Part shown: positions 95 to 5,151 of the stretch, piece by piece
Position numbering within the stretch: the stretch's first letter is position 1
Layout of the letters: each line of letters begins with the position of its first letter
From: Planctomycetota bacterium
Lineage (GTDB): Bacteria > Planctomycetota > Planctomycetia > Planctomycetales > Planctomycetaceae
Length of the DNA: 43,845 nucleotides
NCBI GenBank assembly: GCA_027618475.1
Contig: JAQCEJ010000039.1
Span: 1 to 43,845 of the forward strand
Direction: 5' to 3'
Notes under the pieces: model-generated
What the model saw: only the letters and a program-made list of their open reading frames with translations
What the model was told of the DNA's origin: nothing
Database searches by the model: none
Translations under genes and position numbers: made by a program

Positions 95-123
95 TTGACA
101 CTCGTCCGATCGTATCTTATGAT
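95..123 (+). promoter_or_regulatory. Sigma-70-type promoter for the cimA leader
   Basis: A perfect -35 box TTGACA (95-100) is followed by 17 bases and a TATGAT -10 box (118-123). Transcription would start near 130, about 35 bases before the leader reading frame. Five of six -10 bases match consensus and the spacing is ideal, so this is the best promoter match in the window. Confidence 0.75.
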
Positions 124-163
124 CAACTATCGATTTGATCGTCCGCACAGTTCAAATGGTGGT

Positions 164-280
164 ATGATGTCTGCTTTCGTTGCTAATTCCGTGAATGGAA
201 CCTCGTTGGGAATCGTCGTCACGATTATTTCTCGATGCGGTATTGCAGGCATTATTATCGAGAACGCCACGCGACTGTGA
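164..280 (+). CDS. Isoleucine-rich leader peptide of the cimA attenuator
   Basis: This 38-codon frame starts with two adjacent ATGs (164 and 167) and ends at TGA 278-280. It has seven Ile and four Val codons, concentrated at the end: the stretch GIVVTII is followed by GIAGIII, with three consecutive Ile codons at 251-259. It sits between a consensus promoter and an intrinsic terminator, 137 bases before cimA, whose product commits carbon to isoleucine. This is the layout of ilv-type leader peptides, whose role is to let the ribosome sense charged tRNA-Ile. The upstream GGTGG is only a weak ribosome site. The frame is too short to have detectable homologues, so the call rests on position, codon content and the RNA fold. 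Confidence 0.7.
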   Translation: MMSAFVANSVNGTSLGIVVTIISRCGIAGIIIENATRL

Positions 281-337
281 GGACCGATTTCACAAGAATC
301 CATACCACCCTCAGGTCGCAAAGCCTGAGGGTTTTTT
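231..337 (+). promoter_or_regulatory. Ribosome-mediated transcription attenuator upstream of cimA
   Basis: Two mutually exclusive folds are visible. Antiterminator: 271-282 pairs with 309-319, giving 11 base pairs including one G-T wobble, with a single bulged G at 277. Terminator: 307-315 pairs with 324-332, followed by T residues. The antiterminator uses the whole left arm of the terminator. A further hairpin, CTCGAT (231-236) with ATCGAG (257-262), encloses the triple Ile codons. Inferred switch: a ribosome stalled at 251-259 for lack of Ile-tRNA leaves 271-282 free and the antiterminator forms; a ribosome that reaches the stop at 278-280 covers 271-282 and the terminator forms. Confidence 0.7.
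307..337 (+). terminator. Intrinsic terminator (attenuator) before cimA
   Basis: The GC-rich stem CCCTCAGG (308-315) and CCTGAGGG (324-331) is perfect, extended by A307-T332, with an 8-base loop and a run of six T at 332-337. It lies between the leader peptide stop and the cimA start, so it can only act on leader transcripts unless an unseen upstream gene reads through. Confidence 0.85.
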
Positions 338-417
338 CGTAGGTATTCGCAAAAAGCCCGTTCGGCAGGCAAATGCCAGTACTCCAAACGTTTTGACTCT
401 CGACTCTGGACTCAATC

Positions 418-2022
418 ATGACCCGCATTCAGATGTACGATACAACGCTCCGCGACGGCAGTCAGGGGGAAGGGATCAGTTTTTCGCTGCAAGATAAATT
501 GCAGATCACGAAAAAACTCGACGACCTCGGCTTCGATTACATTGAAGGGGGGTATCCGCTCTCGAACCCAAAGGACTCCGAATATTTTCTCCAGGCGGCT
601 CAACTCGATCTCAAGCACGCAAAAATCACTGCGTTCGGCATGACGCGTCGCAAGGGCGTTGACGCGAAAGATGACATCGGCATGCAGGCGTTGATCGCCT
701 CTCAAGCCCCGACGATCACCGTCGTCGGCAAGACGTGGGACTTACACGTCACCGAAGTCTTACGCGTCGATCTCGACGAGAACATCGCCATGATCCGCGA
801 TTCGCTGGCGTTTCTCAAATCGCAGGGACGCGAAGTCTTTTATGACGCCGAACATTATTTCGACGGCTATCGAGCGAATCCCGAATATGCTCTCAAGACC
901 ATTCGCACGGCTGAAGAAGCCGGTGCCGACATGGTGATTCTTTGCGATACCAACGGAGGAAGTCTGCCGGAAGTGATCGTCGAATGTCTGAAAGCCGCAC
1001 AGAACGAACTGTCGATTCCTGTCGGGATTCACTGTCACAACGATTGCGAACTCGCCGTTGCCAATTCGCTGGCAGCTATCGATCACGGTGCAGTACAAGT
1101 TCAGGGAACCATAAACGGAATTGGCGAACGTTGCGGCAATGCCGATCTAATCAGCGTGGCGTCGAATCTGGCCCTGAAGAAAACCGGATACGAAATCCTT
1201 CGTCCCAATGGGATTGCTCGACTGACCGAACTTTCGCGTTATGTTTACGAGATCGCGAATATGAATTTTCGATCGGGGCAGGCGTTTGTCGGTTCGAGTG
1301 CGTTTGCACATAAGGGGGGGATGCACGTGCACGCCGTCAATCGCGTGTCGCACAGTTACGAACACATCAACCCCGAAGTTGTCGGCAACGTCCGCCGCGT
1401 GCTGGTGAGTGAACTCTCGGGCCGTTCGAACATTGTCGCTAAGACGACGAAGTATCAGTTGAATCACGATCAACAATTAATGACAAAGATTCTCGAAGAG
1501 GTGCAGAATCTCGAAAACACCGGTTATGAATTCGAAGCCGCCGAGGCGTCGTTCGATCTTCTCGTCCGCAAAATCGCGGGAACCTACGAGCCGAAATTCG
1601 AGCGGATTCATTATCGCGTCAATGTCGAAACCGATGCCGCCGAAGAACCGAAGACCGAAGCGACGGTCAAACTACGAGTGAACAATCACACCGAACACGT
1701 CGTCGCCGAGGGGGATGGCCCGGTCAATGCTCTCGATCGGGCATTGCGGAAGGCTCTTTCGCCCAGTTATCCGAACCTCGAACGAATGCACCTTGTCGAC
1801 TACAAAGTCCGCGTGGTCAATTCGAGCGAAGGGACGGCGGCTCGCGTCCGCGTCGTCATCGAAAGCCGCGACGCCGATGAAGTCTGGAGCACCGTCGGTG
1901 TGAGCGAAAACATCATCGAAGCGAGCTGGCTGGCTCTCGTCGACAGCGTCGAATACAAGATCTTCAAAGATGAAGGCGTAGCGAGCGATTCAAAATTGAC
2001 CGCATCAGCGTCAGTAACATGA
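418..2022 (+). CDS. cimA: (R)-citramalate synthase
   Basis: This enzyme condenses pyruvate with acetyl-CoA to (R)-citramalate, the first step of the threonine-independent route to 2-oxobutyrate and isoleucine. The 534-residue protein has the DRE-TIM/LeuA fold: the DTTLRDG active-site motif at 8-14, the GIHCHND metal motif with His205 and His207, and a C-terminal LeuA-type allosteric domain from about residue 385. The opening sequence and the pattern EGGYPLSNPKD resemble the CimA subtype more than 2-isopropylmalate synthase (LeuA), and the Ile-rich leader upstream supports isoleucine rather than leucine. A homocitrate or isopropylmalate synthase is the alternative but is less likely. The ATG at 418 directly precedes the conserved N-terminus; only a weak GGA lies upstream. 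No other branched-chain gene is in the window. Confidence 0.93.
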   Translation: MTRIQMYDTTLRDGSQGEGISFSLQDKLQITKKLDDLGFDYIEGGYPLSNPKDSEYFLQAAQLDLKHAKITAFGMTRRKGVDAKDDIGMQALIASQAPTITVVGKTWDLHVTEVLRVDLDENIAMIRDSLAFLKSQGREVFYDAEHYFDGYRANPEYALKTIRTAEEAGADMVILCDTNGGSLPEVIVECLKAAQNELSIPVGIHCHNDCELAVANSLAAIDHGAVQVQGTINGIGERCGNADLISVASNLALKKTGYEILRPNGIARLTELSRYVYEIANMNFRSGQAFVGSSAFAHKGGMHVHAVNRVSHSYEHINPEVVGNVRRVLVSELSGRSNIVAKTTKYQLNHDQQLMTKILEEVQNLENTGYEFEAAEASFDLLVRKIAGTYEPKFERIHYRVNVETDAAEEPKTEATVKLRVNNHTEHVVAEGDGPVNALDRALRKALSPSYPNLERMHLVDYKVRVVNSSEGTAARVRVVIESRDADEVWSTVGVSENIIEASWLALVDSVEYKIFKDEGVASDSKLTASASVT

Positions 2023-2175: not shown

Positions 2176-5151
2176 ATGCCGACCGAACTTTCGAAGCAGT
2201 ACGAACCGAAAGAGGTTCAAGCGAAGTATCTTCCGTTTTGGGAATCTCGCGGTTATTTCGACGCCGCTCCCGATCCGTCAAAGCAGCCGCACACGATTAT
2301 GATTCCGCTCCCCAATGTCACCGGGGCACTGCACATGGGGCACGCCCTCAACGGCACGCTGCAGGATCTCATCACGCGTTATCGACGAATGCAGGGTTTT
2401 GAGGCCTTGTGGATGCCCGGGACCGATCACGCCGGCATCGCCACGCAAGCGGTCGTCGAGCGGCGGATGCTCGAAGAAGAAGGACTCACACGGCATGACA
2501 TCGGCCGCGAAGCACTCGTCAACCGCATCTGGAAATGGAAAGATGCGTACGAACACCGCATTCTCAATCAGCTCAAACAGCTCGGCGCCTCGTGCGATTG
2601 GCGGCGTGTGCGGTTCACTCTCGACGACGTCTGCTCGCGAGCCGTTCGTCGCACGTTCTTCAAAATGTTTCGCGACGGATTAATCTATCGCGGCAAACGG
2701 CTGGTCAACTGGGATCCCTATCTGCAAACCGCCGTTGCCGACGACGAAGTCTTTCACGAAGAAGTCGACGGCCACTTCTGGACGTTCGAGTACCCGGTGG
2801 TGGGCAGCAACGAACGAATCGCCTTCTCGACAACGCGCCCCGAAACGATGCTCGGCGACTCGGCGGTTTGCGTCCATCCCTCCGATGAGCGGTATCTGCA
2901 TCTTATTGGCAAGAATGTGCGCATTCCTGTGAACGACCGTGAGATTCCGATCATCGCCGATGCGCTGCTCGCGAAGAAAGACCTCGGGACTGGTGCGGTA
3001 AAAGTGACTCCCGCGCACGATCCCAACGACTACGCCTGTGGTCTGCGTAACAATCTCGAGATGATCAACATTCTCAACGCCGATGGAACGCTCAACGAGA
3101 ACGCCGGCAAGTACAAAGGGCTCGATCGTTACGAGGCCCGCAAGCGGGTCGTCGCTGACATGGAAGTCCTCGGTTACTTCGTCAAAGTGGAAGATCGAAA
3201 AATCGAACTGGCGCACAGCGACCGCTCGAAGACACCGATTGAACCGTATCTGTCGGACCAATGGTTCGTACAGATGGCGGATCTTGCGCAGGGGGCAATC
3301 GACGCCGTCAACGACGGCCGCGTGCGGTTCTTCCCCGGCCGTTACGCGAGCACGTATCTCGACTGGCTTGGTGAGAAACGTGACTGGTGCATCAGCCGGC
3401 AGTTATGGTGGGGACACCGTATACCGATCTGGTATTGCGACACCTGCACTGAGGCCGATTTGAAATCTGCTTTCGCAGGGCGAGAAGATCTCACATGGAC
3501 CCGCGATACTGAAGATCGCTATTGGCTGATCTGTAGTGAGACCGACCTCGCCGAGGATGCGCTCGGTGCGGATCATACGCTTCGCCAGGATGACGACGTT
3601 CTCGACACCTGGTTCAGTTCGGCACTGTGGCCACATGCCACACTCGGCTGGCCCGATCTCGATCGCAATCCGCCGATGCAAGGGGACAATCCCTCCGCTA
3701 CTTCCGATGGCAACGCCGTGCTGAAATACTTTTATCCCGGCAGCGTGCTCGTCACCAGCCGTGACATCATCACGTTGTGGGTCGCGCGGATGGTCCTCAC
3801 AGGGCTCTACAATCTTGGCGATGTACCATTTCATCACGTCTGCATTCACCCCAAAATTCTCGATGGATTCGGGCAGACGATGTCCAAATCAAAAGGGAAC
3901 GGCGTCGACCCGATGGACCTCATCGATAAATACGGCACCGATGCCGTGCGTTTCACCATCGCTTCATTCGCCGGCGAAACGCAAGACGTGCGACTGCCGA
4001 TGGGCTACGAGTGCCCGCACTGCGGCGTGGTGATTCCTCAGACCCTCGAACATCAAAAAGCAACTCCGTCCGGCGGAGAAAAACCCCGAATCAAATGCCC
4101 CGGCTGCAAGAAGGCTTCGCAGTATTCGAGCCCGTGGTTCGAACCCGATCCTGATGAACCCGTCGCACGCGTTGTCAGCGACCGCTTCGAATACGGGCGA
4201 AATTTCTGCAACAAGCTCTGGAACGCCTCGCGATTCGTGATGATGAATCTCGAAGGTTACACGCCCGGTGCGATCGATGAATCCGATCTTGCTCTCGAAG
4301 ATCGCTGGATTCTCAGCCGGCTCTCGTCGCTCACGCACGAACTGACGGCGATGCTCGACCGCTATCAGTTCGATGGGGCCACTCGTATTCTTCGTGATTT
4401 CACGTGGAATGAATTCTGCGACTGGTACATCGAGATGATCAAACCCCGGCTGCGCGATGAAGACAAGAAACCGCTCGTGCAACGCGTGGTCGTCGGCATT
4501 TTGGATGTGCTTGTGCGATTGTTGCAACCGTTCATGCCGTTTATCGCCGAGGAACTATGGCAGAAGTTGAACGAGGTTGCTCCCGAGCGCGGTTTGCCGG
4601 ATCCACTAAAAACTGCAGAGAGTGTGATGATTGCCCCGTGGCCGCAGTTGCCGACGGCATGGCAAGATCGTACGCTCGAAAACCGCTTTTCGCGGCTGCA
4701 AGAGACGATCGTCGCCGTGCGGAATATTCGCGCGATGTACAACATCACGGCATCGACGCCGCTGAAGTTACATGTGCGCTGTCCTGAAGAGGTTGCTGCC
4801 GATCTCAACGGCGTCGCCGGTCAATTCGATAATCTCGCGAGGACGATGCTGGAATCGGTCGGGGCCGACGTGACCCCTCCCCCAGGATCGGCGAATTTTT
4901 CGGTGACCGATGCCGACGGTTTCATTCCTCTGGAAGGGATTATCGACCGCACCGTCGAACTCGACCGGCAGCAGAAAGAGAAGAAGAAACTCGAAGGCTT
5001 CATCTCGGGCCACGAAAAGAAGCTGTCGAACGCCAGTTTCGTCGAACGCGCCCCCGCCGACGTCGTCGCAAGCGTCCGCGAAACACTTGACGGGCTGAAG
5101 AAGCAGCTGCAGAGCGTCGAGGAGATCATTCAGCAGCTTAGTGCTGATTGA
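2176..5151 (+). CDS. valS: Valine--tRNA ligase
   Basis: This class Ia aminoacyl-tRNA synthetase charges tRNA-Val in the cytoplasm. The 991-residue protein has the HIGH-type signature HMGH at 53-56, the TTRPETMLGD editing-domain motif, the KMSKS loop as TMSKS at 568-572, the anticodon-binding domain, and a C-terminal coiled-coil arm ending near the stop. Length is slightly above the usual 880-950. The extra length is partly a cysteine-rich insertion just after KMSKS: CPHC at 613-616 and CPGC at 641-644, which looks like a zinc ribbon not present in the E. coli type. It follows cimA by 153 bases, most of it palindromic repeat, so a shared transcript is possible but not shown. ATG 2176 opens the conserved N-terminal helix. 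Confidence 0.97.
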   Translation: MPTELSKQYEPKEVQAKYLPFWESRGYFDAAPDPSKQPHTIMIPLPNVTGALHMGHALNGTLQDLITRYRRMQGFEALWMPGTDHAGIATQAVVERRMLEEEGLTRHDIGREALVNRIWKWKDAYEHRILNQLKQLGASCDWRRVRFTLDDVCSRAVRRTFFKMFRDGLIYRGKRLVNWDPYLQTAVADDEVFHEEVDGHFWTFEYPVVGSNERIAFSTTRPETMLGDSAVCVHPSDERYLHLIGKNVRIPVNDREIPIIADALLAKKDLGTGAVKVTPAHDPNDYACGLRNNLEMINILNADGTLNENAGKYKGLDRYEARKRVVADMEVLGYFVKVEDRKIELAHSDRSKTPIEPYLSDQWFVQMADLAQGAIDAVNDGRVRFFPGRYASTYLDWLGEKRDWCISRQLWWGHRIPIWYCDTCTEADLKSAFAGREDLTWTRDTEDRYWLICSETDLAEDALGADHTLRQDDDVLDTWFSSALWPHATLGWPDLDRNPPMQGDNPSATSDGNAVLKYFYPGSVLVTSRDIITLWVARMVLTGLYNLGDVPFHHVCIHPKILDGFGQTMSKSKGNGVDPMDLIDKYGTDAVRFTIASFAGETQDVRLPMGYECPHCGVVIPQTLEHQKATPSGGEKPRIKCPGCKKASQYSSPWFEPDPDEPVARVVSDRFEYGRNFCNKLWNASRFVMMNLEGYTPGAIDESDLALEDRWILSRLSSLTHELTAMLDRYQFDGATRILRDFTWNEFCDWYIEMIKPRLRDEDKKPLVQRVVVGILDVLVRLLQPFMPFIAEELWQKLNEVAPERGLPDPLKTAESVMIAPWPQLPTAWQDRTLENRFSRLQETIVAVRNIRAMYNITASTPLKLHVRCPEEVAADLNGVAGQFDNLARTMLESVGADVTPPPGSANFSVTDADGFIPLEGIIDRTVELDRQQKEKKKLEGFISGHEKKLSNASFVERAPADVVASVRETLDGLKKQLQSVEEIIQQLSAD

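Follow-up and report, generated by a model that had tools for sequence, protein, structure and literature searches.

An isoleucine-rich leader peptide and competing RNA stems suggest ribosome-mediated attenuation of cimA in Planctomycetia

The region upstream of the citramalate synthase gene cimA in a 43,845-nucleotide stretch of planctomycete DNA (contig JAQCEJ010000039.1; hereafter the window) is very likely a classical ribosome-mediated transcription attenuator. The parts of the attenuator are observed in the window, and their conservation, covariation, geometry and amino-acid specificity are observed in related genomes. Comparison of the leaders gives good support to a real isoleucine (possibly isoleucine plus valine) attenuator of a cimA-valS unit that is widespread in the class Planctomycetia and that very probably would turn cimA off when isoleucine is plentiful. 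The features of the locus, in window coordinates, are as follows.

95-123, plus strand: sigma-70-type promoter, TTGACA-17-TATGAT (11/12 match)
164-280, plus strand: leader peptide ORF of 38 codons, 7 Ile and 4 Val (ORF reading)
251-259, plus strand: Ile triplet ATT ATT ATC, likely control codons (direct reading)
271-282, plus strand: antiterminator 5′ arm, including the leader stop at 278-280 (pairing energy, covariation)
309-319, plus strand: antiterminator 3′ arm, overlapping the terminator left arm (pairing energy, covariation)
307-337, plus strand: intrinsic terminator with a 10-bp stem, a 6-nt loop and a T-run at 332-337 (terminator search, folding)
418-2022, plus strand: cimA, citramalate synthase (TIGR00977, 690.5 bits)
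2176-5151, plus strand: valS, valine--tRNA ligase, 3′ of cimA

A sequence-only reading of this locus had proposed the promoter, a 38-codon frame with seven Ile codons (three of them consecutive), the intrinsic terminator and a one-bulge antiterminator, and we found each of these elements at the positions it gave. The leader frame opens with ATG at 164, followed by a second ATG at 167 and preceded by a Shine-Dalgarno sequence that is weak by direct reading, and it ends with TGA at 278-280. It encodes MMSAFVANSVNGTSLGIVVTIISRCGIAGIIIENATRL; the seven Ile codons proposed are there, but with four Val codons the frame is rich in Ile and Val, not in Ile only. The terminator hairpin at 307-332 (ACCCTCAGGT-CGCAAA-GCCTGAGGGT) has a folding energy of −18.2 kcal/mol (z −4.9), and the antiterminator one of −15.5 kcal/mol (z −3.3), with none of 200 shuffles as good. 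The antiterminator was thought to consume the whole left arm of the terminator; it takes most of that arm but leaves the outermost positions, 307-308, unpaired. The proposed overlap of the switch region with the end of the peptide frame is borne out by the position of the leader stop within the 271-282 arm. The identity of the downstream gene, also part of the earlier reading, is secure, since its TIGR00977 score lies well above the cut-off of 450 bits. Rfam covariance models run against the whole window at gathering thresholds gave no match to a T-box or other described riboswitch, and we rejected such an identity for the element.

We compared the leader with a null scan covering 631 kb of the same genome and 151 terminator-like sites. 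The cimA leader had the richest upstream Ile/Val frame among these sites (9 of 16 codons, the next best having 7), and the cimA terminator pattern occurs only once in the 5.93-Mb genome. A Met-rich 'leader' that appeared in the same scan (L214) was dismissed as chance, since it is an acidic gene rich in GATGAT that has been read out of frame.

The sequence-only reading had named conservation in relatives as a test, and the Ile-rich frame, terminator, antiterminator, promoter and spacing all proved to be conserved across Planctomycetia. We gathered cimA loci from 80 contig records and 59 whole genomes, which left 95 loci with enough upstream sequence after removal of duplicates; the window genus had no further member among them, and the nearest cimA was 77% identical. 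A strong intrinsic terminator preceded cimA at 81 of the 95 testable planctomycete loci and was absent, by the criteria used, at the other 14. When the ORF ending 10-75 nt before the terminator was scored against dinucleotide shuffles, 67 of the 81 terminator-bearing leaders contained a frame enriched in Ile and Val (p≤0.05 each), with a mean of 6.9 Ile plus Val per 16 codons versus 2.0 in the shuffles; examples of the encoded peptides are MSFPSSSRSLHDSTAIIAARIIVISIIGDV (L083), MPFFPSIRPTPGSAIARIVVVSIIGVV (L013) and VFTRSAPAVIAATAIIGVVVVITTG (L072). Many relatives also carry a promoter matching at least 10 of 12 positions, with a spacing of 17 and at an equal distance from the terminator. Substitutions between related leaders numbered 176, 186 and 302 at codon positions 1, 2 and 3, counted over pairs that are not independent, a bias that is as expected for a translated frame and that would support translation indirectly. 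Ile codons in 72 leaders favored ATT, with 234 cases against 103 of ATC; the neighboring cimA and valS genes showed no such preference, the corresponding counts there being 30 and 47.

Both competing stems were conserved in an alignment of 29 family members, each with five pairs showing double changes, in agreement with the covarying terminator and antiterminator pairs that the earlier reading had anticipated. In the terminator, 99.6% of cells were paired and none of 500 shuffles reached the observed values; in the antiterminator, 89% were paired, the covariation score was equaled by 1 of 500 shuffles, and slid controls were at most 55% paired. Because the terminator and antiterminator share an arm, we added an alignment-free swap test, in which the 5′ region of each leader was matched in turn against the terminator left arms of all leaders. 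Own pairings were more favorable, by 2.8 kcal/mol, than expected from the row and column means, and none of 20,000 permutations was as good, in a comparison where relatedness is only partly corrected and where terminator switches occurred in several lineages. At four loci (L038, L052, L057 and L087) the terminator sequence had changed and the antiterminator had changed along with it. Antiterminators of the Gemmatales type are shorter (GGGGUC with GACCCC, and variants). A 1:2 protector hairpin between the antiterminator arm and leader sequence upstream of it was not conserved among 53 leaders (mean z −0.6, with 6 of 53 below −2). The apparent lack of this conserved element, which in attenuators of the trp/his type keeps polymerase and ribosome in step, was the one anatomical difference we found from that type.

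As a control for amino-acid specificity, we ran the same script on leuA, a paralog of cimA in these genomes. Of 19 leuA leaders scored, 18 were Leu-rich with a layout like that of cimA. The genome of the window has a separate predicted attenuator of this kind before its own leuA (L153, contig C34:45364-46124, minus strand), with a TTGACA promoter, the leader MSASRHALPLSLLLSLWDTGMV and then the terminator CCCCGGTCAACTGTTGACCTGGG. Over the last 24 residues, leuA leaders averaged 6.2 Leu and 0.4 Ile, whereas cimA leaders averaged 0.9 Leu and 5.0 Ile (p-value below 1e-9 for each amino acid), along with 2.7 Val. We found no comparable leader upstream of ilvB in 24 genomes, nor upstream of hisG, trpE or ilvD in the genome of the window, and therefore the method does not create such leaders. 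Leu codons in the same layout before leuA provide independent evidence of amino-acid specificity, and this contrast between leuA and cimA is the strongest argument that selection has acted on the codons and not merely on the RNA.

The geometry of the leaders points in the same direction. Measured from where the last Ile codon begins, the antiterminator arm followed at a median distance of 16 nt in 72 leaders (14 nt in the window leader); in the same leaders the arm began a median of 4.5 nt before the leader stop, and the terminator lay 32 nt after it. For the ribosome we assumed an edge 13 nt beyond the first base of its A-site codon. When it was placed at the last Ile codon, the antiterminator captured the terminator left arm in 81% of leaders; placement at the stop codon reduced this share to 8%. 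This spacing fits a ribosome footprint, such that a stall at the last Ile codon would free the arm and a ribosome at the stop codon would cover it.

In the mechanism that we infer for leader translation, stalling, termination and the physiological response, RNA polymerase would start near 130 and a ribosome would translate the leader frame of 38 codons. With too little charged tRNA-Ile, and perhaps tRNA-Val, available, the ribosome would stall at the Ile codons ending at 259 with its leading edge at about 270, leaving 271-282 free to capture 309-319 once that segment is synthesized; the terminator left arm would then be sequestered by the antiterminator, and polymerase would read on into cimA-valS. 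If Ile were plentiful, the ribosome would reach the stop at 278-280 and cover 271-282, the terminator at 307-337 would form, and transcription would end. In the full transcript the terminator is thermodynamically favored in nearly all leaders, and antitermination must therefore be kinetic, set by the order of synthesis, on which antitermination also depends in trp attenuation.

The gene downstream of cimA enters into one alternative explanation. At 69 of 93 loci in planctomycetes, cimA is followed by valS on its own strand and no more than 2 kb away, and this association of an isoleucine synthesis gene with a valyl-tRNA synthetase gene is conserved; we found no terminator-like site between the two genes in the window, and they probably share a transcription unit, a linkage that may tie a tRNA synthetase gene to an Ile/Val sensor. 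It is possible, though doubtful, that the leader senses valine, or isoleucine and valine jointly, and that its main target is valS. The four Val codons of the window leader (IVV), the Val content of cimA leaders in general, the Val runs that dominate those of the Gemmatales type and the frequent position of valS behind cimA are consistent with this idea, but Ile codons are the most frequent and, in the window leader (251-259), those nearest the antiterminator; the first gene is always cimA, and the CimA product is an Ile-specific precursor.

Two further explanations would leave the Ile codons without a function. The conserved terminator and antiterminator could be worked by a protein or ligand, as in a riboswitch, with the Ile-rich frame incidental; Rfam covers described families only, and absence from it is no proof to the contrary. 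We nevertheless consider this very improbable, given that the sequence between the antiterminator arms is hardly conserved and has no aptamer-like core, that Ile codons in cimA leaders and Leu codons in leuA leaders stand at equal spacing, and that the leader frame shows a third-position bias. The terminator might instead end an upstream transcript, or a gene for a small RNA or small protein, with the cimA promoter located 3′ of it. An upstream gene does end at about 81, near the contig edge, by direct reading; however, the strong conserved promoter at 95-123 separates the terminator from that gene, a search of the plus strand from 337 to 418 gave no sigma-70-like site, and the conserved antiterminator and Ile codons would be left without a role, so that we regard this explanation as extremely improbable. 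Ribosome-mediated attenuation remains the reading we favor.

The cimA attenuator layout was also found in Gemmataceae-type genomes, for example that of Limnoglobus roseus (L082). Gottshall et al. reportedly proposed in 2014, in a claim that is disputed, a spatial separation between transcription and translation in Gemmata obscuriglobus. Leader-peptide attenuation works only with a ribosome close behind RNA polymerase, and its layout in Gemmataceae-type genomes therefore provides a direct genetic test of the separation claim. One lineage, of the Gemmatales type, has a near-invariant GCGCAGGGAGTGCGC inside the leader ORF upstream of cimA (L052, L053, L055, L057, L058, L059, L065, L068, L069, L075, L082 and L111), which reads AQGVR in the leader frame, also forms a 4-bp GCGC hairpin and is conserved even at third codon positions. 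We put at about even the chances that Planctomycetota, including those of the Gemmataceae type, run a set of ribosome-mediated attenuators, one responding to Ile/Val before cimA-valS and one to Leu before leuA, that would require the ribosome directly behind RNA polymerase, with the Gemmatales-type hairpin maybe an added pausing or sensing element.

Leader-peptide attenuation is textbook knowledge in Proteobacteria, and in Enterobacteria ilvGMEDA, ilvBN and leuABCD have the leader-peptide attenuators ilvL, ivbL and leuL. The planctomycete cimA element resembles these in its leader rich in the end product, its mutually exclusive antiterminator and terminator and the biosynthetic genes 3′ of them; it differs in belonging to another phylum, in its predicted control of cimA, and thus of the citramalate route, instead of ilvG or ilvB, and in that we found no conserved 1:2 protector hairpin. 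In Actinobacteria, leader-peptide attenuators have been predicted or shown for trp, leuS and ilvB (PMC1262725), and the ilvB-II uORF of Corynebacterium is reported to be one of them (PMC10272879). Like the planctomycete leaders, the actinobacterial ones combine codons for the product amino acid with a terminator, although before other genes: ilvB has a leader in Actinobacteria but none in the 24 planctomycete genomes, and leuA has a LEU pseudoknot in Actinobacteria versus a Leu-rich leader and terminator in planctomycetes. The histidine leader peptides of Firmicute hisS and hisZ are a case of attenuation outside Proteobacteria and Actinobacteria and differ from planctomycete cimA in phylum, amino acid and gene; according to the report describing them in 2010, none had been shown outside those two phyla before, and both Planctomycetes and cimA are absent from its main text (PMC2965389). 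A 2016 study considered planctomycete leader genes in connection with reinitiation distances, with citramalate and isoleucine unmentioned (PMC4833913). The sequence-only reading knew of no described case for cimA in this phylum, and we likewise found no description of a planctomycete, cimA or leuA attenuator in the open-access literature, with Lopatovskaya et al. 2010 a place that could hold earlier predictions. Leader-peptide attenuation is thus apparently new, as far as the open-access literature goes, for both Planctomycetota and cimA, and the evidence from about 80 leaders would extend it to a new phylum and a new gene, with leuA in the same organisms predicted to use the scheme too.

Two minor observations concern the surroundings and the distribution of the element. 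The gap between cimA and valS in the window contains, at 2030-2095, a hairpin-like interspersed repeat, GCGGCGGGGTTTAYCCCCGCC, with an inverted partner; the repeat has 22 matches in the genome, several of them arranged in pairs that face each other across some tens of bases. Outside the class Planctomycetia, cimA genes mostly lack the terminator, and we regard the element as mainly one of this class because only 4 of 20 cimA upstream regions from other classes of the phylum (L115, L116, L120 and L126) show a terminator and an Ile leader. These four, from other classes or families, carry runs of Ile before the terminator, for example MNIQNIIISIIINIGGD and MTNTLIIIGRIII.
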